DNA of 10,511 bases from Treponema sp. (GTDB lineage: Bacteria; Spirochaetota; Spirochaetia; Treponematales; Breznakiellaceae), in NCBI GenBank assembly GCA_031275035.1, contig JAISPH010000016.1:1-10511 (forward strand), given 5' to 3'. The notes beneath the pieces were generated by a model. That model searched no databases and was not told where the DNA came from. It worked only from the letters and a program-made list of their open reading frames with translations. Positions within the stretch are counted from its first letter, which is position 1. Every line of letters starts with the position of its first letter. Of the stretch, positions 1 to 10,448 are shown in pieces. The position numbers and the translations under genes are program-made.

Positions 1-81
1 GCGCCATAATCCGCCTTCCTGGCGGATTATGGCATTGGAGACGGGGCTGGAACCCGAGGCGATATATACGAACTGCGTTTA
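1..81. repeat. Left copy of long terminal inverted repeat
   Basis: Bases 1-56 are a perfect reverse complement of 10393-10448. Extending inward to base 81 (partner 10368) adds only three mismatches, at 57, 71 and 73. The copy comprises a hairpin cap (3-33), a unique-looking linker ending in GGAACCCG (49-56), and the first palindromic unit of the adjacent array. The window begins exactly at base 1 of the match, so the repeat may extend further left out of view. No target-site duplication can be assessed and no transposase is encoded between the copies. Confidence 0.93.
3..33. repeat. Hairpin cap of left inverted repeat
   Basis: GCCATAATCCGCC (3-15) and GGCGGATTATGGC (21-33) are perfect 13-bp complementary arms around the 5-nt loop TTCCT. 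The same hairpin recurs at 10416-10446. No T-run follows on the minus strand within the window, so it is not a textbook intrinsic terminator. It could still act as a 3'-end stabiliser, a recombination or recognition site, or a protein-binding site. Confidence 0.9.
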
Positions 82-255
82 TATGCGGGGGATGGTGATA
101 TATACGAAGTGCGTTTATATACCGGGCTGGTGGATGTAACACGCATTCGCTTTATTTCCGGGCGGGGGGCGGGTTTGGGACAGGTCCGCGGCGATATATA
201 CGCAATGCGTATATATGCCAGGCGGATGGATGTAACACGCATTCGCTTTATTTCC
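61..255. repeat. Left array of ~37-bp-spaced palindromic units
   Basis: Five units share an ACG core at 68, 104, 141, 200 and 237, giving spacings of 36, 37, 59 and 37 bp. Three units (61-86, 98-123, 193-217) have arms like ATATATACG and CGTTTATAT around a short centre. The unit at 194-216 is a perfect 11-bp-arm palindrome around A205. The other two units (131-159 and 227-255) belong to a second type containing GATGTAAC and GCTTTATTTCC. Spacers are G-rich. The orientation is opposite to that of the array at the other end of the window. The block lies downstream of the minus-strand operon and has no credible coding content. Confidence 0.88.
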
Positions 256-263
256 AGGCGGGA

Positions 264-276
264 GGCGGATTATGGC
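264..276. repeat. Orphan half of the hairpin cap
   Basis: GGCGGATTATGGC is an extra exact copy of the right arm of the cap hairpin (21-33), without its partner arm. It sits just after the last in-phase left unit, so the left block has a cap arm at both of its edges. This may mark the inner boundary of a copied element. Confidence 0.75.
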
Positions 277-281
277 GTCGA

Positions 282-302
282 AGTTTGGGTAATGCCCAAA
301 CT
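282..302. repeat. 8-bp-stem hairpin
   Basis: AGTTTGGG (282-289) and CCCAAACT (295-302) are perfect complements around the loop TAATG. A second inverted repeat follows five bases later. No T-tract adjoins it on either strand. Its role is unknown; it may be a 3'-end structure of the minus-strand operon. Confidence 0.7.
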
Positions 303-306
303 CCAC

Positions 307-342
307 CTGTCCGCCAACGGCATCCATACCGCAGGCGGACAG
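307..342. repeat. 9-bp-stem extended hairpin
   Basis: CTGTCCGCC (307-315) pairs perfectly with GGCGGACAG (334-342). Inside the loop, CGG (318-320) can pair with CCG (329-331), extending the structure. Function is unknown. Confidence 0.65.
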
Positions 343-426
343 CCTAAAAACAGCGACGTCCTTGCCACCGCCCTGCGGGCGCAATCCGGCATGGAGAGTG
401 GTGTGGGTCTAGGACGAGTCTGGGGG

Positions 427-452
427 CATATATACGCAATACATATATACGC
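427..452. repeat. Isolated array-like element, direct-repeat form
   Basis: CATATATACGC occurs twice, at 427-437 and 442-452, as an 11-bp direct repeat with a 15-bp offset. It uses the half-site of the array units, but in tandem rather than inverted orientation. It stands about 70 bp 3' of the transglutaminase stop codon and about 200 bp from the last array unit. Confidence 0.7.
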
Positions 453-522
453 CAGAAAAGGACGGAGCGGATGCAGGCGTCCGGCGCTCTCCACATCTGT
501 TCCTCGTCTTTGCGGTTTTTCT

Positions 523-3500
523 TCACTCCTCCGTAAAGATCGCCTCCCCCAGGGCAAGGGCAAAGGCGCTCATATCCCCCGCCGCAAACGAAGCCAGGGG
601 AATGTTGCGCCGGAATACCGGTTCGCCCCGGAAACTGTCGTAGAGCTCGCAGGCAAATTCGTCTCCGGCCGCCGTCAGGCTGAGCCGGAATCTGGGCCTG
701 CCCGCGCCCCCTGCCCGCTGCGGTTCAACGCCTATGCGCCGGAGGACCCGGCGCAGGTTCCGTTCTGTCCGGCGACCGGGATCGCCGCTTTCCAAACTGG
801 CGGCAGTGCCGGCGCTAATGACAAGCTCCACGGGCAGCCTGATTCCCCGCTGGCGAAGGGCGCCCCGGTTAAGGGCATAGAGCCGTTCTCCGGGACGCTG
901 GGTATCTTCGCCGGTTCCGGCGGCGGCCCGGAGGAATATGCCGCCCAGGCCGGGCCGGGCAAGTTCGGCGTACACATCGGCAATGATGTCCCGCTCCCAA
1001 ACGGGATCAAGGCTTTCCAGCGCTTTCCGCAGCAGACCTCCGTTTCTCCGTAAAATTCCTTCTTCGGCGTCGTAGGAAGGTTCAGACAGGGGTATAAGGG
1101 GAATTTCAAGATCCCTGGCGGCCCTCAGGTAGCTTAAACCCCGGCGGGGATAGAACTTAAACGCATTATAGTACTGCAGCAGGGCCTCCAGATGGGGCCC
1201 GCCGTCTTTCATCCTCAATGACGGAAAACGGGACGGGCTGTAATCGTTGGCGGAAAGGAGGCTGTACTTTTCAAAAAGGCGGCGGTGAACAGCGGCCTTA
1301 AACCAGCGCCCGGTTCTCCGAAACCGGCCCTGTACCCAATCCCCGAAAGAGGCGTAGAAGGTAAAGGCTTCGGTCTTCTCAAGGCCTTCATAGGTCTTGT
1401 AGAGGATCTCGTGAAGATCCCGCCTGTACTGTACCGGATCGGTGCCGTAGTTGAGCATCCAGGAAAGATCGCCGGTATTAAGGCTGTCTTCGCCGTAAAG
1501 CCGGGCCTCCTCGAGGCGGCCCGCGATCTGATAGACCTGGGCCAGATCCATTTTGGAAAGGGTAGAGGTATCGGCCTGGTAAGCATCCTGAAATTCCCCA
1601 AGAGCTCTGGCAATATCAAGCTGGCGGAGAAACAGTTCCCCCTGCATCAGCCGCCCCGAAACCCGGCTGCGGGAAGCAAGGGACAGGCCGGTCCGGTTAA
1701 ATGATTCAGCATAGCGGTAAAAGCGGCTCTCCAAAATTGCCAGATTGTAATGGGCCACCGCGACAAAGTCCCTGTCCCCCAGGGCCGCTCCCCGCTCTAT
1801 GGCGTCCAAATAGCGGCTCTTGGCGTCGCCGTAGCGGAACATATCCGCATAGATCGTTCCCAGGGTCATGGAAATATCCGCGTCCGTTCCGTTGCGCTTA
1901 ATAAAAGCCTGAATAAGATTTTCCGCATCCCCAAGGCGGTGCAGTTTGTAATACATCCAGCCCAGATGATTTACCGCTTCCTTGTTATCCCCGTCTAAAA
2001 CCAGGAGCCGTTCCAGATAGCCCGCGGAAATCCCGTTCTCGTTAAGATGTCCCGATGTTTGAAAAAGCTGGTACAGCAGCCCCGGATCGGAAGGAAGCGC
2101 CCGGTCAAGTTTTCGGTACTCGTCCCGGGCAAGGCGGTAGAGCCCCCGGCTGAAGTAGAGATCCCCCAGGGTCCAGGGAAAGCGTATGTCTCCGGGGAAA
2201 CGTTCCGCCCCCTCCGTATAGAGTTCGACGGCCCGCTCCCAGAATTCCCCGGCCTGGGCTTGAGAGGCTTCGTCAAAAAGCCGGTCCGCCTCGCTGCCCT
2301 GGGCTCCGGCCCGGTCCCCTGCGGGGATCAGCATAAAAAGGATGAGCAGCAGCGCCGGAACGCCGCCGGCAGATTCGTCCTTCCGTCCTGCAGGCAAAAT
2401 AAGCGCCAGGGGCGGCAGGAGCCAGGCAAGAAGCCGCCGTCCCGGAACGACCGACCTTTTGTATCCGGCGGAAAAGAAAACATAGGCCTCCTGCATCGCC
2501 TTCAGATCCGCGGAGGTATAGGCGGGGGCATAGCGGGCGGCGGCGGCGCACTGATAGAGACGGTAGACCCCGGGAACAACGGAGTCCATGGCTTTGGCCC
2601 ATTCGGCCCCGGTAACGGAAGCCGTCCGCCGCCGGCCGGCCAGGGCAAGCCGCCTTAAAACATGGTCCCAGAGAAGGACCCCCTTCCTGCGGGGCTTCCG
2701 GCTCAATCCTGAGGCGGCCAGCGGGGAAAGGCGCATAAAAAGCATGGCCCCCGCAAAAAATACAACGCAGAGGAAGATCCAGCTTCTCCGGATAAAACGA
2801 ATCGTCCATTCTCCGGCGGCGGCAAGGGCCGAAGCGTCCGCTTCGCCGGTCCCTTCCCGGGGAACCAGTCTGGAATGGTTGTTCAAAATTTCCTTAAGCA
2901 GCCGTTCAAAGCTGTCCTGTACATCCGAGGGAAGCCGGAATTCTTCATTCTCCGCCATTATGGTCGTGGTCGGGTCGTATTCTATCCAGCCGTATCCGGG
3001 ATACCGGACTTCTACCCAGGCATGGGCCATGTCCGCCCTGACGGGGTAATAGTCAAAGGTATTAAGCTGGGGATCGATAAAGAAACCCACCGCCGTCCTG
3101 GCGGGTATTCCCAGGGAACGGAGAAGTATGGTCATGGCAAAGGCATAGTATGAGCAGTAGCCCTTCTTCGACTTAAAGAGAAAGAATTTAAGCTGATCCC
3201 CGTCGGGGGCTATCCCCGGTTTCAGGCTGTACCGGTATTCGCCGAATTTAAGCCCCTCGTAGATACCCTGTATCTTTTCCCAGTAGTTTTCCAGGCCCGC
3301 AGTCATTTGCCGGGCATAGGCGGCAATTTCCTCATCGCCGCCGTACTCGGTATAAAAGGCATACTCCCCGGCGCTCAGGCCCAGCTCCGCCGGAGAAGGC
3401 ATACCCCGGACCAGGCTTATCAGTTCGAGGAGGCCGGCTTCACTGACCCGGCTCCGCACTCCATAGGCGGAACTGAAGGAAGAAGCGTCCCAGGTATCAA

Positions 3501-4611
3501 AGGGGATAATCTCTGCGGGTTCCTTCATGGCGATAAAGGCGGCGGCGTCAAAATTTACCAGGTAGTATTCCTGGTTTGTCATGCGGGTATTCCAAACATC
3601 TTCGGTCTCCAGCGCCGTTTTTCCCTGGGGAAGCTGCCGGGGATGGGCCCGCTCGTCAATATCCCCGGCGTGGAAAAATCCCCGGTCTTTGGAATAACCG
3701 GACAGTACAAAACGGCGGAGCAATATGTGGCCGTCTTCCCTGTCTTTTTTTACAATAAAAATCAGATCGTCGTTCATCGAGATTTCATTTTCCAGCCGCA
3801 GAAACTGGGAAAAGTCAAAACGGAAAAACTTGGGCTCCAGAAGGCCGCCGCCGCGGTTCAGGGCCCGTTCCTGGGAAGGCCCGATGAACAGTACGCTCCC
3901 CGCCAGGATCAGAATAAACAAAGCCAGACCCGTCCAGAGGCCTTCTTTTTTTTTCAGCCGGTATTCCGGAGGGATGGAGAGCATCACCGCAAGAATCTGC
4001 AGAAAGAGGATCATCCCAAAAAAGGCAATCGTAAAAACCGGCCAGCGGTATGCCTCCATCCCGGCGGTCCGGGCAATAGAGAAGAGGACCACCAGGAGGG
4101 CATCGGCGGCGATGATGTCGGCCCGCAAAAAGCGCCGGGACCGGAGGGAGCCGTAGGTGCCCAGGGCGGTCCAGTAAAACGGGACAAGGGAGACAAAGTT
4201 GTTGTGATCCAGCCCAAGGAGAAGGGAATCCAGGATCAGCGCCGGTCCCGGTATAAAAAGCCGGGGAAGGGCAATCAGGGCCCGGGCCGCCCAGGGTATC
4301 AGGATCAGGGTGATTACCGCCGCCGGAGGAGGCATCCGCCTCTTAAAGAGCCTCCAGGCGGCGGCAAAGGCCAGAAGGAGGGCGGCGGCGAAAACCGGGG
4401 TATCCGCCAGCTCCGCCGCAAAGAGACGAAACTGCCAGAGTATGCCGAAGAGGGCCAGGGAACGGAGTATCAACGCCGCAAGCCATTGCCGATCCGCCGC
4501 CGTTACGGGCAGCCCCCCGCGCAATACCGGAACAGGCTTAGAAACAGAGACGCCGGGCACGGATTCCCCCCCTGCAATTATAGATACGCACACAGCCTTC
4601 GGCGGCGGCAT
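523..4611 (-). CDS. Membrane transglutaminase-TPR fusion protein (TgpA-like)
   Basis: This predicted inner-membrane protein of 1362 aa is about twice the length of usual TgpA-type transglutaminases. Around six hydrophobic segments lie within residues 42-244, followed by an extracytoplasmic region and a transglutaminase-like core. The triad is Cys486 (GYCSYYAFAMTILLRSLGIPAR), His530 (MAHAWVEV) and Asp546 (IEYDPT). A further membrane segment lies at about 610-628. Two hydrophobic segments follow at about 727-742 and 751-763; the second ends in AGA-Q (768-771), resembling a signal-peptide cleavage site. TPR-like helices run from about 785 to 1010, then a C-terminal region I do not recognise. The chemistry (transamidation, cleavage or binding) cannot be fixed from sequence. 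It is the last gene of the MoxR/DUF58 operon. ATG 4611 has GAGGGAG nine bases upstream but overlaps DUF58 by 74 nt; GTG 4560, behind a G-run, is an equally possible start giving 1345 aa. Confidence 0.93.
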   Translation of the reverse strand: MPPPKAVCVSIIAGGESVPGVSVSKPVPVLRGGLPVTAADRQWLAALILRSLALFGILWQFRLFAAELADTPVFAAALLLAFAAAWRLFKRRMPPPAAVITLILIPWAARALIALPRLFIPGPALILDSLLLGLDHNNFVSLVPFYWTALGTYGSLRSRRFLRADIIAADALLVVLFSIARTAGMEAYRWPVFTIAFFGMILFLQILAVMLSIPPEYRLKKKEGLWTGLALFILILAGSVLFIGPSQERALNRGGGLLEPKFFRFDFSQFLRLENEISMNDDLIFIVKKDREDGHILLRRFVLSGYSKDRGFFHAGDIDERAHPRQLPQGKTALETEDVWNTRMTNQEYYLVNFDAAAFIAMKEPAEIIPFDTWDASSFSSAYGVRSRVSEAGLLELISLVRGMPSPAELGLSAGEYAFYTEYGGDEEIAAYARQMTAGLENYWEKIQGIYEGLKFGEYRYSLKPGIAPDGDQLKFFLFKSKKGYCSYYAFAMTILLRSLGIPARTAVGFFIDPQLNTFDYYPVRADMAHAWVEVRYPGYGWIEYDPTTTIMAENEEFRLPSDVQDSFERLLKEILNNHSRLVPREGTGEADASALAAAGEWTIRFIRRSWIFLCVVFFAGAMLFMRLSPLAASGLSRKPRRKGVLLWDHVLRRLALAGRRRTASVTGAEWAKAMDSVVPGVYRLYQCAAAARYAPAYTSADLKAMQEAYVFFSAGYKRSVVPGRRLLAWLLPPLALILPAGRKDESAGGVPALLLILFMLIPAGDRAGAQGSEADRLFDEASQAQAGEFWERAVELYTEGAERFPGDIRFPWTLGDLYFSRGLYRLARDEYRKLDRALPSDPGLLYQLFQTSGHLNENGISAGYLERLLVLDGDNKEAVNHLGWMYYKLHRLGDAENLIQAFIKRNGTDADISMTLGTIYADMFRYGDAKSRYLDAIERGAALGDRDFVAVAHYNLAILESRFYRYAESFNRTGLSLASRSRVSGRLMQGELFLRQLDIARALGEFQDAYQADTSTLSKMDLAQVYQIAGRLEEARLYGEDSLNTGDLSWMLNYGTDPVQYRRDLHEILYKTYEGLEKTEAFTFYASFGDWVQGRFRRTGRWFKAAVHRRLFEKYSLLSANDYSPSRFPSLRMKDGGPHLEALLQYYNAFKFYPRRGLSYLRAARDLEIPLIPLSEPSYDAEEGILRRNGGLLRKALESLDPVWERDIIADVYAELARPGLGGIFLRAAAGTGEDTQRPGERLYALNRGALRQRGIRLPVELVISAGTAASLESGDPGRRTERNLRRVLRRIGVEPQRAGGAGRPRFRLSLTAAGDEFACELYDSFRGEPVFRRNIPLASFAAGDMSAFALALGEAIFTEE

Positions 4612-5785
4612 CGTAACGTTCTCCCTCGTAGAGAAAAAGCAGATCCGTCTGCCGGTTTCCCCGGCGTTTCAAAAAACGGTCCAGAACGGAATCCGCCGCC
4701 CCGGTCCGGGGCAGGGCCAGGACAAGGACCCCGCCGGCGTCTCCCTCCGGCGGAAGAGGCAGCTCCCCCGGATCGGTCAACGCTGCGGGATAGGCCAGAA
4801 CGGCGGCCAGTTCCGGGGGACTGCCCCCCAGGATGCTTCCCCCGGCATAACCGGTTTCAATAATCAGCCCCGACTCAACATAGGCCATAACCCCCGCCAG
4901 GGCATATTCACAGAGCAGATCCACTCCGCGGAGGCCCCCCTCTTCATCGTACAAGCGGGGATCCCGCTGGGTATCCAGCAGCAGCGTAAGCTTCCCCCGG
5001 GGCGGAGGTTCCCGTTCTTCCTCCCGGACAAAGAGATCCCCCGCATGGCCGTAGAGCTTCCAGTTGATCCGCCGGGGATCGTCCCCGGGCACATAGGGCC
5101 GGTGATCGATGAGATTGTCGCTGCGGAGAAAACGGGACGCCGCCCGGCGTTCAATCCCGCCGCCCCGAGGGGCCGGGGGAAAAAATTCCGCCCCCGCTCC
5201 GGGCAGGGCCAGCAGCCGGGGGAGGCGGTCCTGGGGCACGGGGATACGGATACGGAAAAGGCCCAGGGCGTCGCCGATGGTAAATTCATCGCGGGGCCCG
5301 TAGTAGGCGCCCCGTTTTTCTACGGGAAAAGAGAGGGCGTCCTTATCCGGCACGCCGGGATCAAAAACATGGCGGATAACGCGCCCGTCCCGGGTCGTCA
5401 GATTCAGCTCATAACGGAGAAGCACCCCCGGCAGGCGGATAAAACCCTTCCCGTCCCCCCGGAATACCATCTCCCCCCTTCCGCCGGCGGCGGTTTCCCG
5501 GGGCGCAATACGGGCCAGAAGAAGAGAAGCCCGCCGCCGGTGGAAAAGGCCAAGAACCAGCGAGGCGGCCAGGGTATAGGCCAGAACCGCAAAGAAGACC
5601 GTTCCGGTCAGGGTCAGAACCAGCTCTCCCCGCAGGGTCCCCAGGGTAAAGGCAATAACGCCGGTGAGCAGCGCAAAGATCCCCATGGTCCGGGGAACGG
5701 GCAGAAGAACGGGAAAAGGCCGGGCCGGAACCGTACCGGAGGGGAGGACCGGATCAGCCGGCCTTGAGCCCGTTGATTCGCGCAA
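4538..5785 (-). CDS. DUF58 family protein
   Basis: A 415-aa protein with two N-terminal membrane segments (about 36-52 and 54-80), a beta-rich middle part, and the DUF58 signature at 229-251 (RPYVPGDDPRRINWKLYGHAGDL). A strand ending LLLDTQ (268-273) begins the von Willebrand-A-like fold that often follows; its metal site looks degenerate because the usual DxSxS is absent. DUF58 proteins are routinely encoded beside MoxR ATPases and are thought to be their partners in envelope-protein assembly; the biochemical role is not established. The chosen start is TTG 5785, because GGGAG lies seven bases upstream and the first in-frame ATG (5686) has no ribosome-binding site. This start overlaps the end of the MoxR gene by 32 nt, which suggests translational coupling. 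Confidence 0.95.
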   Translation of the reverse strand: MRESTGSRPADPVLPSGTVPARPFPVLLPVPRTMGIFALLTGVIAFTLGTLRGELVLTLTGTVFFAVLAYTLAASLVLGLFHRRRASLLLARIAPRETAAGGRGEMVFRGDGKGFIRLPGVLLRYELNLTTRDGRVIRHVFDPGVPDKDALSFPVEKRGAYYGPRDEFTIGDALGLFRIRIPVPQDRLPRLLALPGAGAEFFPPAPRGGGIERRAASRFLRSDNLIDHRPYVPGDDPRRINWKLYGHAGDLFVREEEREPPPRGKLTLLLDTQRDPRLYDEEGGLRGVDLLCEYALAGVMAYVESGLIIETGYAGGSILGGSPPELAAVLAYPAALTDPGELPLPPEGDAGGVLVLALPRTGAADSVLDRFLKRRGNRQTDLLFLYEGERYDAAAEGCVRIYNCRGGIRARRLCF

Positions 5786-6710
5786 GGCAGATCTCCCGGA
5801 TTAATTTTTCCCCCTGGGCCCTGGGATCCCGCAGTCTCAGCCGGTGGGTAAGGACAGGAACGGCCAAAACAGTAATATCTTCGTCGATCACATAATCCCG
5901 GCCTTTAACCAGGGCCAGGGCCCTGACCGCGGCAAGCAGATGGAGCGCCGCCCGGGGAGAAGCTCCCAGCAGAAAACCCCGGTGAGTACGGGTGTCCCGG
6001 ACTATATCCGCAATAGCTCCCTTCAAACCGGGATGACAGAAAATCCCCGCCGCGGCCGACCGGAGGGCGGTAAAATCCGCTTTCCGGATCACCGGTTCCA
6101 GGCTTTTCAGGGCCCCTTCGGCGGGGTTTTCTTCCAGAATGGCCAGTTCCGCCCCGCGGTCGGGGTAGCCCAGGGAAAGGCGCATCATAAAGCGGTCCAG
6201 TTGGGCCGCCGGCAGGGGAAAGGTTCCCTCGCTTTCGATAGGATTCTCGGTGGCAATAACAAAGAAGGGCTCCGGGGGCCGGTGGGTAGAGGCGCCGATA
6301 GTTACCTGGCCTTCGGCCATTACCTCCAGCAGGGCGGATTGTACCTTGGGGGTGGTCCGGTTGATCTCGTCCGCCAGAACAATGTTGGCCAATACCGGAC
6401 CGGGTACAAAACGGAAGGACCGGCTTTCGGGATCAAATACATCGACCCCGGTAATGTCATAGGGAAGAAGGTCCGGGGTAAACTGAATGCGCTTAAAGAG
6501 CAGGGGCCTTTTGCCGTCGGCGATAAGCCGGGCAAAGGTCTTGGCCACCGTGGTTTTCCCCAGTCCGGGGTTATCTTCGATAAGCACATGACCCCCCGCA
6601 AGAATCGCCGCAGTAAGCAGTTCCAGAAATTCCCGTTTTCCCCGGATAATCCGGGAAGCCCCCTCCAGCAGGGCCGATACCGCGGCGGCGGATTCCAGTT
6701 CAATATCCAT
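5754..6710 (-). CDS. MoxR family AAA+ ATPase
   Basis: A full-length cytoplasmic MoxR ATPase of 318 aa. Walker A is NPGLGKTT (47-54) and Walker B is IVLADE (110-115), followed by the family hallmark INRTTPKVQSALLEVM. Sensor 1 is ATENPIE (153-159), LDRF (171-174) lies in the arginine-finger region, and sensor 2 is GASPRA (249-254). MoxR proteins are ATP-driven chaperones that usually work with products of adjacent DUF58 or VWA genes, matching the next gene here. It is the first gene of the minus-strand operon. ATG 6710 has only a weak ribosome-binding site (GCTGAAATT precedes it). A possible -10 hexamer, TGTTAT on the minus strand (6725-6720), would give a very short leader. No active-site residue is obviously missing. 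The family call is firm; the physiological substrate is not known. Confidence 0.97.
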   Translation of the reverse strand: MDIELESAAAVSALLEGASRIIRGKREFLELLTAAILAGGHVLIEDNPGLGKTTVAKTFARLIADGKRPLLFKRIQFTPDLLPYDITGVDVFDPESRSFRFVPGPVLANIVLADEINRTTPKVQSALLEVMAEGQVTIGASTHRPPEPFFVIATENPIESEGTFPLPAAQLDRFMMRLSLGYPDRGAELAILEENPAEGALKSLEPVIRKADFTALRSAAAGIFCHPGLKGAIADIVRDTRTHRGFLLGASPRAALHLLAAVRALALVKGRDYVIDEDITVLAVPVLTHRLRLRDPRAQGEKLIREICLARINGLKAG

Positions 6711-6772
6711 AATTTCAGCATAACACAGCGGAAGCGGTTGCGTATATCCGCAAAAAAGATTACCTTACCACT
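6711..6772. promoter_or_regulatory. Divergent control region between the two operons
   Basis: This 62-bp gap must hold the promoters of both the MoxR operon and the lipoprotein operon. It contains an inverted repeat, TTGCG (6738-6742) and CGCAA (6749-6753), around a 6-nt loop. TTGCGTATAT (6738-6747) is identical to a half-site in the last right-array unit (10376-10385). A weak plus-strand promoter is possible: TTGCGT (6738-6743), a 17-bp spacer, TACCTT (6761-6766). Its -10 would lie six bases before the ATG, implying a leaderless or near-leaderless mRNA, which agrees with the lack of a Shine-Dalgarno. The promoter assignment is tentative. Confidence 0.5.
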
Positions 6773-7519
6773 ATGAAATACTTTACGGTACTCATAGCGG
6801 CATTCTGCCTTTTAACGGGATGTGCCACCCTCGGGGGAGGCAGGGATCTTTCGTCTCATTCGCCGGTAAACATTGTCTCGGTGGTTTCAAACTACGATAT
6901 TAACTGGGACGGCGAAGGGCCTTCCCTGGAACGGAGCCTTGCCACCAGCACCGGCGCCTTTGTCAAAAGGGCCCTTCAGAAGAATCGCCAGGAAACCAGG
7001 GTGCGCATCTCCAAGGCCGATGAGCTTATAAACGAAGCGGACCTGACTCTGCGGGGCATTGCCGCCGACGCGGGGATTGCCGCCTTTGCCGGGAAGGACG
7101 AGGTCATTGCCGCCCAGGCCTATGCCGGCGCCAGGATCAACCCCCGGCAGGATAACGAGGATACCGTCGCCGCCGAAGGCTACCGTTTTGTCTATTTCCG
7201 GGACAAGGACTTCCCCGGAAACATGGCCCGGGAAACCGGCGCAGGCAGCCTTATGTTTGTAACCTTTTCCTTTACCAAGGTCGTAGCTTCGGGGGTGGCG
7301 AGAAACGGCACCATGCGGGCCAAGGTTGAAATGAACGTGCGGATCGTCAGTGCGGCGGGGAAAACCATTTTCAACAGAAGCCTCAACCTGACCAGCAGCG
7401 AGAAGATCCCCGTCTCCGGGGGCTACTATGAAGAGCCGGATCTGATGCAGCTCTTCCGTTCCGCCATCAGCGACATCTGTTATGAATTTGTTGCCCAGTT
7501 TAAGTCAACCAAATGGTAA
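6773..7519 (+). CDS. Predicted outer-envelope lipoprotein of unknown function
   Basis: A 248-aa protein opening with a short basic/hydrophobic signal sequence and the lipobox LLTGC, with lipidated Cys17. It should therefore be exported and anchored as a lipoprotein. The mature part has alternating beta-strand and short helix patterns: VNIVSVVSNYDINWDGEG near the N-terminus, and a strand series around 160-215 (SLMFVTFSFTKVV, VEMNVRIVSAAGKTIF). I recognise no named family. It is the first gene of the plus-strand operon and lies 44 bp before the regulator gene, with no terminator in between. There is no convincing ribosome-binding site before ATG 6773, but the lipobox position supports this start. 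A structural or surface role in the envelope is inference only. Confidence 0.85.
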   Translation: MKYFTVLIAAFCLLTGCATLGGGRDLSSHSPVNIVSVVSNYDINWDGEGPSLERSLATSTGAFVKRALQKNRQETRVRISKADELINEADLTLRGIAADAGIAAFAGKDEVIAAQAYAGARINPRQDNEDTVAAEGYRFVYFRDKDFPGNMARETGAGSLMFVTFSFTKVVASGVARNGTMRAKVEMNVRIVSAAGKTIFNRSLNLTSSEKIPVSGGYYEEPDLMQLFRSAISDICYEFVAQFKSTKW

Positions 7520-7551
7520 GCCGGCCCGGGAACAGCCGCCCGCAGTTTTTC

Positions 7552-7557
7552 AGGAGA
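7552..7557 (+). promoter_or_regulatory. Ribosome-binding site of the regulator gene
   Basis: An AGGAGA-type Shine-Dalgarno lies about seven bases before ATG 7564 and fixes that start. It contrasts with the weak or absent sites before the lipoprotein and MoxR genes. Confidence 0.75.
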
Positions 7558-7563
7558 TAACAG

Positions 7564-8904
7564 ATGAGCGTTATTGGCATTATTAATTCAGATTCAAAAT
7601 TCAAAGAATCCATCGATCTTGCCTTCAGCCATAATTCAGAATACGAGATAAAGTATCTTATCGAAGAAGACGCCATCCTGGAATTTTTAAACTATGAACT
7701 GCCGGAGATTGTCGTAATCAATTTCTCCGATCCCGCCATCAATCTAAACGAAATCATATCCCATGTAAAAAACGACAAATGGATTCTTAACTTCGGCATT
7801 ATCGGCCTTTATTCCCACGAACAGGACGAAGAGGAGGAGCTGCTAAAAAAGTACAAGGCCGTTAATGTCCTTACCCTGCTTGACAACTACCGGCTCCGTT
7901 CCCATCTGGTAAAAAGCCTTCAAATTATCGAAGAGAACTATCAGATTATCTTTCAGCGGGAATTTACCAAAAATCTCCTGGACGGCGTTTCGGGGGGGTT
8001 CACCATTGACAACGATCTTCTGGCGGTCCCCCTGTATGCCGCCATCGGCGCCACCATCCTGGCCCAGCGGGGGCTTGTCAATCCCGACAGCAAGATGCAC
8101 CTGCAGCTGGCCCTGGGCGAACTTATCGTCAATGCAATAGAACACGGCAACTGCGGCATTAGTTATGACGAAAAAACCGAAGCCCTGAATCAGGGGCTTT
8201 CGGTGGTCGATTTGGTGGCGAAAAAATGCAAAGACCCCGCAATCATGGCAAAGAAAGTTGAGTTCCAGTGGGAGATTCAAAAGGACCGGAGCATCTTTAT
8301 CATCCGGGACGAAGGAAAAGGCTTTGACGTTAAGGCCCATCTGCGCAAGATAGCCGGCCAGGACCAGATGAGCCTCCATGGCCGGGGCATCAAAATGGCG
8401 GCGCTCTTTTCCCAGGAGCTGAAATACAATTCCACGGGAAACCGGGTTGCCCTGATCCTGCGCCATGATTCGTCGGTAGAACACGAGATCCCCCTGGGTT
8501 TCTCCAAAGAACAGGTCCTCCTGGTCAAACCCGGAGAAATTATCATACGGGAGGGGGAGCCCAGCGACAACCTCTACTACATTTCCAGCGGCAAGTACAG
8601 CGTTTTCCACAACCGGAAACAGGTGGGCTCCCTTTCGCCCCAGGATATCTTTATGGGCGAGATGTCCTTCCTCCTCGGCCAAAAACGATCCGCCTCCATC
8701 AGGGCGGATACCCAGGGAAAACTTATCCTCCTGCCCCGGAGAAATTTTATCAACGTAATCCGGGAATATCCCCACTACGGCATATTCCTCTCCAAGCTGC
8801 TGGCAAAGCGCCTGGTCAGAAGTAACGATCAAAATGCCAGGCTGATGGGCGGGGTTAAGGGTGAAACTCCGCCGGTTCCGCCGGAGGGCGGTCATTTGCC
8901 GTGA
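7564..8904 (+). CDS. Pseudo-receiver / RsbW-like ATPase / cyclic-nucleotide-binding regulator
   Basis: A soluble 446-aa regulator with three apparent domains. Residues 1-125 look like a response-regulator receiver fold, but the strand that normally ends in the phospho-acceptor Asp reads IVVINFSD, with Asn53, so it is probably a pseudo-receiver. Residues about 150-305 are a GHKL ATPase of the RsbW/SpoIIAB (HATPase_c_2) type: N-box ELIVNAIEHG (186-195), G1 box RDEGKGFD (248-255), G2-like HGRGIKMA (272-279). Residues about 315-425 form a cyclic-nucleotide-binding domain with a phosphate-cassette-like stretch GEMSFLLGQKRSASIRA (365-381). RsbW-type kinases bind or phosphorylate sigma-factor or antagonist partners. 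This one may couple a nucleotide signal to partner switching, but no partner gene lies nearby. Its stop codon overlaps the start of ddl, so the two are probably co-translated. Confidence 0.9.
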   Translation: MSVIGIINSDSKFKESIDLAFSHNSEYEIKYLIEEDAILEFLNYELPEIVVINFSDPAINLNEIISHVKNDKWILNFGIIGLYSHEQDEEEELLKKYKAVNVLTLLDNYRLRSHLVKSLQIIEENYQIIFQREFTKNLLDGVSGGFTIDNDLLAVPLYAAIGATILAQRGLVNPDSKMHLQLALGELIVNAIEHGNCGISYDEKTEALNQGLSVVDLVAKKCKDPAIMAKKVEFQWEIQKDRSIFIIRDEGKGFDVKAHLRKIAGQDQMSLHGRGIKMAALFSQELKYNSTGNRVALILRHDSSVEHEIPLGFSKEQVLLVKPGEIIIREGEPSDNLYYISSGKYSVFHNRKQVGSLSPQDIFMGEMSFLLGQKRSASIRADTQGKLILLPRRNFINVIREYPHYGIFLSKLLAKRLVRSNDQNARLMGGVKGETPPVPPEGGHLP

Positions 8905-10052
8905 GCGGAAAAATCACCGTGGGCATTGTCTTTGGCGGCAGATCGGCGGAGCATGAGGTTTCCCTCCAGTCGGCAAAGAATGTCTTCGACGCCATAGACC
9001 GGGACAAATACAAACCGGTGCTCATCGGCATCGACAAGTCGGGCCGCTGGCTGCTGAACGATTCGGAGCATTTCCCCGCCGGCGGCGCTGTTTCCGGCGG
9101 CGCCGCCGCGGCCCTTGCGCCGGGGCCCGGACCTGCCTGTACGGAAGAGGCCGGCCGGGACTGCCCCGCGGAAGGCCCCGCCCTCCCCCGGACGGGACGG
9201 GGCGGCATCGTGAACCTGTCCGCGCCCGGCGGCGCCGGGGAGATTGCCCTGGATGTGGTTTTCCCCATCCTGCACGGACCCTTTGGAGAAGACGGCACGG
9301 TCCAGGGCTTTTTCAAACTGGCGGATCTTCCCTTTGTAGGGGCCGGAGTGCTCGGTTCCGCAGTAGGCATGGACAAGGACGTGATGAAGCGTCTCCTCCG
9401 GGACGGCGGCGTTCCCATCGGCAGATACCGGGTCCTTCGTTCCGGCGAAACGCTTCCCGGTTTCGCCGCGCTGACGGAGGAACTGGGACTTCCCCTCTTT
9501 ATCAAACCGGCCAATATGGGTTCCTCCGTGGGGGTAAGCAAGGTCCGTACCGAAGAGGAATTCGTCGCCGCCGTTTCCGGCGCCTTTGAGTACGACGCCA
9601 AGATCGTCATCGAAGAATATATCCAGGGCCGGGAACTTGAATGTTCGATACTGGACGGCGGAGAACCCGCGGCGTCCCTGCCGGGGGAGATTATCCCGTC
9701 CCACGACTTTTATTCCTACGAGGCGAAATACCTTGACGAAAAGGGAGCCTCCCTGGAAATCCCCGCCAGACTTTCCCCGGAAAAAACCGCGGAGATACAG
9801 AAGCTGGCCATACAAACCTTCCAGGTCCTCTGCTGCGAGGGCCTTGCCAGGGTAGACTTTTTTATGAAGGCCGACGGAACCATTCTGGTAAACGAGATCA
9901 ACACCATGCCGGGATTTACCAAGATCAGCATGTATCCCAAACTCTGGGAGGCCAGCGGCATTTCCTATACCCGGTTAATCGATAAACTAATCGAACTTGC
10001 CCTCCGCCGTTTTGAAAAAGAAAAAAAACTGAAAACCAGCGTTGCCCTGTAA
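8901..10052 (+). CDS. ddl: D-alanine--D-alanine ligase
   Basis: An ATP-grasp ligase that joins two D-alanines for the peptidoglycan stem peptide, in the cytoplasm. Diagnostic motifs are all present: FGGRSAEHEVSLQSA (11-25), HGPFGEDGTVQG (125-136), KPANMGSSVGVSKV (202-215), EEYIQGRELECSIL (238-251), RVDFF (317-321) and NEINTMPGFT (331-340). Lys276-Tyr277 in YEAKY matches the Tyr that favours D-Ala over D-lactate; VanA-type depsipeptide ligases have Phe there. At 383 aa it is longer than typical Ddl (about 305-360), owing largely to an Ala/Gly/Pro-rich insert at about 58-112. GTG 8901 is the start: it overlaps the upstream TGA in a GTGA junction, with GGAGGG 12 bases upstream. It is the last gene of the operon and is followed by the right repeat array. 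The function call is firm. Confidence 0.97.
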   Translation: MSGKITVGIVFGGRSAEHEVSLQSAKNVFDAIDRDKYKPVLIGIDKSGRWLLNDSEHFPAGGAVSGGAAAALAPGPGPACTEEAGRDCPAEGPALPRTGRGGIVNLSAPGGAGEIALDVVFPILHGPFGEDGTVQGFFKLADLPFVGAGVLGSAVGMDKDVMKRLLRDGGVPIGRYRVLRSGETLPGFAALTEELGLPLFIKPANMGSSVGVSKVRTEEEFVAAVSGAFEYDAKIVIEEYIQGRELECSILDGGEPAASLPGEIIPSHDFYSYEAKYLDEKGASLEIPARLSPEKTAEIQKLAIQTFQVLCCEGLARVDFFMKADGTILVNEINTMPGFTKISMYPKLWEASGISYTRLIDKLIELALRRFEKEKKLKTSVAL

Positions 10053-10068
10053 AGGCCGCCCCCTGCCT

Positions 10069-10174
10069 GCATATATACGCAGTTCATATATATCCCACCC
10101 GCCCCGCATATATACGCAGTTCGTCTAACTGGCCTTTTCCCCGTCTATAGACGTACTTCGTATATATCGCCCCT
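10069..10174. repeat. 106-bp direct repeat, copy 1
   Basis: This segment, spanning three array units, recurs at 10253-10358 (offset 184 bp) with five substitutions and no gap. It shows that the right array grew by segmental duplication of several units, not only one unit at a time. Confidence 0.88.
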
Positions 10175-10252
10175 TCCCCGGCATATAGACGCAATTCGTC
10201 TAATCGATCCCTGCCCGGAAATAAAGCGAATGCGCGTTACATCGCCTCCCCG

Positions 10253-10358
10253 GCATAGAGACGCAGTTCGTATATATCCCACCCGCCCCGCATATATACG
10301 CAGTTCATCTAACTGGCCTTTTCCCTGTCTATAGACGTACTTCGTATATATCGCCCCT
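10253..10358. repeat. 106-bp direct repeat, copy 2
   Basis: The second copy of 10069-10174. Differences are two T/G changes in the first unit's left arm, one A/G at its centre-right arm, one G/A in the second unit (TTCGTCTAAC becomes TTCATCTAAC), and one C/T before the third. Confidence 0.88.
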
Positions 10359-10367
10359 GCGCCGCGT

Positions 10368-10448
10368 TAAACGCATTGCGTATATATCGCCGCGGGTTCC
10401 AGCCCCGTCTCCAATGCCATAATCCGCCAGGAAGGCGGATTATGGCGC
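10368..10448. repeat. Right copy of long terminal inverted repeat
   Basis: Reverse complement of 1-81, perfect over 10393-10448 and with three mismatches over the remainder. It runs from the innermost shared palindromic unit through the linker (CGGGTTCC at 10393) to the hairpin cap and ends at 10448. The following bases (10449 on) cannot be compared with the left side because the window starts at base 1. Confidence 0.93.
10416..10446. repeat. Hairpin cap of right inverted repeat
   Basis: GCCATAATCCGCC (10416-10428) and GGCGGATTATGGC (10434-10446) form a perfect 13-bp stem with loop AGGAA. No T-run follows in the direction of ddl transcription, so simple intrinsic termination is not evident. 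Confidence 0.9.

Follow-up and report, generated by a model that had tools for sequence, protein, structure and literature searches.

Two copies of a dispersed element related to TD-2 probably form the inverted repeat at the ends of two divergent Treponema operons

Introduction

The Rfam family TD-2 (RF03162, clan CL00124), reportedly described in an earlier published paper, is a three-hairpin element with a GAGUUU/AAACUC middle hairpin, whose 3′ hairpin has a stem of about 14 bp and an A(N)GGA loop. Our literature search found no paper on the function of TD-2 or on a link between TD-2 and CsrA. Palindromic repeats are also known from the REP/BIME type, which are organized in arrays and come with RAYT, the REP-type Y1 transposases. 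With regard to the loop, the high-affinity target of Csr/Rsm proteins is given in PMC4005645 as A(N)GGAX, presented by a stem with a closing C-G pair; if N is absent, the proteins bind less strongly. For another Rfam family, TwoAYGGAY (RF01731), a role involving CsrA was put forward from a motif argument (PMC4333381).

Here we analyse a stretch of 10 511 nt from a Treponema sp. genome (contig JAISPH010000016.1 of assembly GCA_031275035.1), hereafter the window, in which a long inverted repeat surrounds a cell-wall gene and a MoxR operon.

Results

An exact inverted repeat lies past the ends of two operons

The window holds six genes, which their spacing suggests form two divergently transcribed operons. 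The left operon encodes, in order, a MoxR ATPase, a DUF58 protein and a transglutaminase/TPR protein; the right operon encodes a 248-aa protein, a HATPase/cNMP-binding protein and Ddl.

523..4611, − strand: transglutaminase-core and TPR protein, 1362 aa (PF01841, 5.5e-23; TPR families)
4538..5785, − strand: DUF58 protein (PF01882, 1.8e-5, just above its cut-off)
5754..6710, − strand: MoxR-type AAA ATPase (PF07726, 2.6e-57)
6773..7519, + strand: 248-aa protein with no Pfam family; lipoprotein-like N-terminus, judged by eye
7564..8904, + strand: HATPase and cyclic-nucleotide-binding domain protein (PF13581, PF00027)
8901..10052, + strand: D-alanine–D-alanine ligase, Ddl (PF07478, 2.4e-71; PF01820)

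Direct comparison confirmed the repeat of the preliminary description: bases 1–56 are the exact reverse complement of 10393–10448, and the likeness extends to 81 bp (1–81 versus 10368–10448) with 78 of 81 bases matching (96%) and mismatches only at 57, 71 and 73. Each copy carries the same perfect 13 bp stem with a 5 nt loop, at 3–33 and 10416–10446 respectively, again as first described; we refer to this hairpin as the cap. The hairpin-core pattern had two matches in the window and none in 200 dinucleotide-preserving shuffles.

1..56, − strand: left copy of the 56 bp repeat, ending at the window edge; BLAST matches to TD-2-bearing loci of relatives
3–15/21–33: stem of the left hairpin, loop 16–20; AGGAA in the sense of left-operon transcription (− strand)
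34–56: leader of the left copy
10393..10448, + strand: right copy of the 56 bp repeat, leader 10393–10415
10416–10428/10434–10446: stem of the right hairpin, loop 10429–10433; AGGAA in the sense of ddl-operon transcription (+ strand)

Both copies are situated past the 3′ end of an operon, the cap hairpin starting 363 nt (right) or 489 nt (left) beyond the stop codon. They have the same sense relative to their own operons and, because the two operons are transcribed divergently, look inverted on the chromosome. The proposal that the repeats are paired 3′ boundaries of divergent operons is thereby supported. That they bound the segment is less secure: the repeat is real, but base 1 is the edge of the window and the left copy may run further outward. 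The window start is presumably the end of the contig; this edge may be an assembly break, because contigs of relatives tend to end near TD-2 (see below).

The cap is related to the last hairpin of TD-2

The cap recurs in related genomes, in agreement with an early suggestion that the repeats are two inverted copies of a dispersed element. Among the 195 genomes of the family, nine had loci matched by positions 2–40 of the repeat (four candidates scored per genome, so that copy numbers are lower bounds), and a scan of genome contigs for the hairpin core returned eight loci, three of them in Treponema MAGs. No further copy of the whole 56 bp was seen in the 195 genomes of relatives, and an exact 31-base pattern of the repeat had no match in viral contigs. 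The pairing of the two copies had been regarded as incidental should their sequence occur at many unrelated loci; such occurrence was found for the hairpin, but not for the 56 bp as a whole.

In the relatives, the loci matched by the cap are series of hairpins. BLAST alignments of the cap included 97% over 34 nt (L007, genome G003) and 89% over 38 nt (L006, genome G002), and the latter locus is a TD-2 above threshold with 61.1 bits. Using the Rfam gathering score of 48.7 bits as cut-off for membership, TD-2 was above it at L037, L039 and L006/L024 (one locus, the 61.1-bit match) and below it at the match itself in L029, L030 and L032, as well as beside the match in L036 and L038. The counterpart of the cap in TD-2 is the 3′ hairpin, whose form it has with its 13 bp stem and AGGAA loop. 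Neither window end gave a TD-2 match at E ≤ 10, nor did the whole window at E ≤ 1, and we therefore call the copies TD-2-like rather than members of the family.

The flanks inside the repeats were examined likewise.

57..261, − strand: left array of ∼28 nt units; unit 1 like GGCATATATACGCATTGCGTATATATCG, unit 2 like GGAAATAAAGCGAATGCGTGTTACATCC
262..395, − strand: TD-2-like remnant (fold and BLAST)
352–372, − strand: terminator-like site
10065..10392, + strand: right array, period ∼37, 9.1 copies by TRF

Next to the left array we found further parts of a TD-2-like element: a hairpin with an ATGGAT loop (307–342), a hairpin of the middle type (280–306, GGAGTTTGGG..CCCAAACTTC) and a second cap hairpin reduced to one arm (264–276), which is interrupted where the array starts. 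By BLAST, this remnant matches L006 (74% identity, 70 nt) and L001 (79% identity, 53 nt); Rfam TD-2 had no match in it at E ≤ 10. Beside the right copy, neither of the upstream TD-2 hairpins was seen. The window thus contains no uninterrupted three-hairpin TD-2 element, the left parts being split by the array.

The adjoining arrays are specific to the lineage

The units of both arrays are ∼28 nt long and many are 36–38 nt apart; in the right array, a 115 nt block recurs at a spacing of 184 nt with 93% identity. Folded singly, several units give weak, imperfect hairpins and others little structure. The units of the two arrays point the same way relative to transcription. The two arrays also resemble each other in inverted orientation, less well than the repeat does, so that the likeness between the window ends extends past 81 bp.

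Related arrays were found on four contigs of genome G002, and the other 194 of the 195 genomes gave no match (at most four candidates scored per genome). Judged by eye, the arrays in G002 are not restricted to 3′ ends: one lies between two gene starts (C17), one starts at a gene end (C95), and one starts directly after half a cap hairpin that supplies the TAA stop of the upstream frame (C97).

The sister genome has the gene block without the repeats

The closest genome found, G002 (Treponema sp. MAG Im510_bin16), encodes all six proteins in the same order with 82.9–92.1% identity, as a comparison of gene order in a close relative, proposed at the outset, established. Its DNA is 86.5% identical to the window over 522–10059, and the similarity ends at the outer gene ends. 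Neither repeat copy is present at the corresponding sites flanking the six-gene block: a different repeat array is found behind ddl, and the other side is without such a repeat. Because the block exists in G002 without them, the repeats do not define the segment; either they are younger than the gene block, or they were lost in G002. In two further genomes (G001 and G003), the HATPase/cNMP gene was the only one of the six found in the stretch compared.

The array close behind ddl in G002 (L019:12690–13170) is a distinct tandem array with units like GACCCGGAGTCTTTAGATTCT, accompanied by other repeats. The intergenic space of the sister species seems to fill with unrelated repeats.

Stems of TD-2 change as whole base pairs

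We surveyed TD-2 in the 195 genomes and obtained matches in 85 of them at E ≤ 0.001 (55 above cut-off), as compared with none of 14 controls; 19 candidates were scored per genome, which makes copy numbers lower bounds. Features were studied in 120 of the listed matches, mainly the best-scoring ones. Among 102 distinct 3′ hairpins, 1420 of 1434 pairs were Watson-Crick, with six G-T, three A-C and five other pairs, and the middle hairpins were similar (1090 of 1112 Watson-Crick, 10 G-T). The hairpin finder scores G-T as a mismatch and may trim stem ends, so wobble pairs at the ends were possibly missed in these counts. As a control, 33 tRNAs from three of these genomes had 42 G-T in 697 pairs (ARAGORN draws standard and G-T pairs only, and hence gives no A-C count). 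When TD-2 copies behind homologous genes were compared, 36 of 112 stem pairs had changed on both sides, one on one side, and 75 were the same; these are eight comparisons, not independent of each other (three form a triangle), at protein identities of 36–91%, three of them at 36–59%. Stem pairing in the relatives is maintained while the stem sequence changes.

The near lack of wobble pairs is unlike the usual evolution of RNA and points to a process at the level of DNA, and TD-2 and the repeats of the window might indeed be DNA-level palindromes of the REP or MITE kind that spread by copying and have no RNA function, their perfection being maintained by template-switch correction or by conversion between copies. 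The two-sided stem changes fit this explanation, as do the lineage-specific flanking arrays and the accumulation of TD-2 near contig ends, which is expected of repeats (12 of 30 loci at ≤ 350 bp from an end versus 2.9 expected). However, homologous genes of different genomes have TD-2 at an identical position behind them, which suggests retention, and the conserved loop is left unexplained. Nor are REP-type Y1 transposase genes consistently linked to TD-2. Y1_Tnp matches were obtained in four of six genomes, but when 15 of the 18 loci with such a match were scanned, TD-2 was present at only two (once above and once below cut-off); genomes G001 and G103, with 11 and 19 TD-2 matches respectively, had no Y1_Tnp match, and a perfect-hairpin scan around 13 of the Y1_Tnp loci revealed no common cap. 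From these loci of relatives, mobilization of TD-2 by a RAYT/REP system seems improbable. We regard a palindromic DNA repeat in general as a possible, if not a likely, account.

Several other observations were made at these loci. Genome G089 has 12 Y1_Tnp matches, several of them in 177-aa frames (L088, L090, L092, L094–L102); these make up a multicopy family of Y1 transposases, for the most part with no TD-2 close by. In genome G075, two TD-2-like copies (L034 ∼1490–1535 and L040 ∼1490–1530) come after short frames with identical final residues (AWTHIP), by eye as if the element had truncated a gene family near its start. Near TD-2 at L023 (∼1500), L128 and L163, the C-termini of frames look by eye like those of FGE-sulfatase/DGR variable proteins (GFRLLRP-type).

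TD-2 is frequent at gene ends

An opposite-strand open reading frame of at least 100 codons ended at the 3′ hairpin of TD-2 in 37 of the 105 matches with enough flank, as compared with 14 of 104 at the TD-2 5′ end and 206 of 2400 at random places. In the 27 such ends that we drew, the stem starts inside the frame (15 cases), 2–8 nt past the first stop-codon base (11 cases) or 13 nt past it (one case). The strand directly following these stop codons is the non-GGA strand, with UCC loops. The proteins encoded next to TD-2 are diverse, with 20 clusters among 31.

This preference, together with the position of both window copies past operon ends in the sense of transcription, could also mean that the caps are ordinary 3′-end hairpins, acting as transcription terminators or in protection of mRNA 3′ ends. 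A terminator-like site does lie in the left flank (352–372, − strand) and could end left-operon transcripts ahead of the left cap. Yet neither cap is among the 28 terminator-like sites of the window (shuffles, 15.9 ± 4.0); the right cap has no T-run after it, and the left cap runs up to the edge of the window; and the distances of 363 and 489 nt from the stop codons, like the conserved loop, do not fit. Intrinsic terminators were rejected because the caps are absent from the terminator-like sites, and we consider ordinary 3′-end hairpins as a whole unlikely.

The loops resemble the CsrA binding motif

On the TD-2 strand, A(N)GGA loops were found in 96 of 102 distinct 3′ hairpins, in 67 of 85 first hairpins and in none of 101 middle hairpins (among the 120 listed matches), a count that is partly circular given that the matches came from a model already containing GGA loops. 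For this reason we also applied a stem-only pattern in which the loop was free. Among 75 of the sites listed, it returned a GGA/TCC loop in 42 of 55 fully paired and in four of 20 imperfectly paired stems; this pattern is less biased, yet its sites overlap the same TD-2 loci. Each window cap has the sequence C-AGGAA-G, which lacks N, on the sense strand of its own operon, and both have the loop and the C-G closure of the CsrA/RsmA motif, A(N)GGAX.

Of 17 genomes searched for CsrA, 15 have the gene; 16 of the 17 had TD-2, the exception being G003. The two genomes with no CsrA match, G159 and G187, have nine and six TD-2 matches and are possibly incomplete. In the sister genome, csrA adjoins a frame that by eye is FliW-like, and its product has an arginine at what we take, also by eye, to be the position of the RNA-binding Arg44 of E. 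coli CsrA. When the GGA strand was compared with the neighbouring genes in 87 of the 120 matches (33 with an open reading frame across were set aside), it was opposite to the upstream gene in 47, the same in 26 and at an edge in 14; for the downstream gene, the numbers were 56, 19 and 12 respectively. The window copies, being on the sense strand of their operons, have the minority arrangement. TwoAYGGAY had no match at E ≤ 1 in the 17 sources searched. One locus in a genome of the treponeme family (L100:624–703) matched Flavo-1 RNA (RF01705) above cut-off.

Discussion

Each copy of the inverted repeat is probably the 3′ portion of a TD-2-related, dispersed multi-hairpin element and is joined to a short-unit array otherwise seen in the sister genome alone; the copies sit past the last genes of two divergently transcribed operons. 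We further propose that each copy would function as a stable hairpin at the 3′ end of the RNA, and with this role included we still lean towards the explanation as a whole. The AGGAA loop, closed by C-G, is a candidate docking site for CsrA; as a mechanism for the caps, CsrA docking is a tentative proposal built on motif and gene content. More speculative is the extension that TD-2 and its relatives make up a dispersed family of CsrA-docking hairpins in treponemes, in which the loop would be conserved, the stems would vary as whole Watson-Crick pairs and the elements would settle on gene ends.

Two further explanations concern the window itself. An assembly artefact, in which one copy was misjoined at a contig end, is suggested by the left copy beginning at base 1 and by the tendency of relatives' contigs to end near TD-2; it is very improbable, since the inner flanks differ in array order and in the remnant, which is on the left only, so that the copies look like two distinct loci. 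An invertible segment or a composite mobile element with terminal inverted repeats, for which long identical inverted arms ∼10.3 kb apart would speak, is scarcely credible given the same block in the same order and without arms in the sister genome, the recurrence of the cap at unrelated loci of relatives and, as the preliminary description had noted for transposases, the absence of Pfam families for recombinases or transposases from the six genes. Inversion or mobility of the segment has gained no support.

A TD-2-related identity of the two copies would remove a tempting but very probably wrong reading of this window, namely that of a flipping or mobile 10 kb segment. In a wider context, the copies in relatives point to a function for TD-2 that can be tested, in an Rfam family so far without one. 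The great excess of two-sided over one-sided stem changes (36 versus 1) is unusual for RNA and bears on how palindromes stay perfect. If the family does dock CsrA, a function would be assigned to an Rfam family of unknown role, and these spirochaetes would have a multi-locus CsrA sponge or 3′-end regulon alongside FliW.

How does this locus compare with the known systems? With TD-2, the likeness lies in the cap and its adjoining flank (positions 4–40 of the query), which align with the TD-2 3′ hairpin in the sister genome and others, and in the ATGGAT-loop hairpin and the GAGTTT hairpin retained in the left flank; in contrast to TD-2, the window copies have no match to the model at E ≤ 10 and the element is broken by a repeat array. 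REP/BIME repeats with RAYT are likewise short imperfect palindromes in polar arrays between genes, whereas the loci of relatives scanned showed no consistent linkage of TD-2 to Y1 transposases. TwoAYGGAY and the Csr/Rsm sponge RNAs share repeated hairpins, A(N)GGA loops and C-G closure with the elements described here; unlike them, TD-2-like elements are dispersed and multicopy, and their strand is mostly opposed to that of the neighbouring genes.
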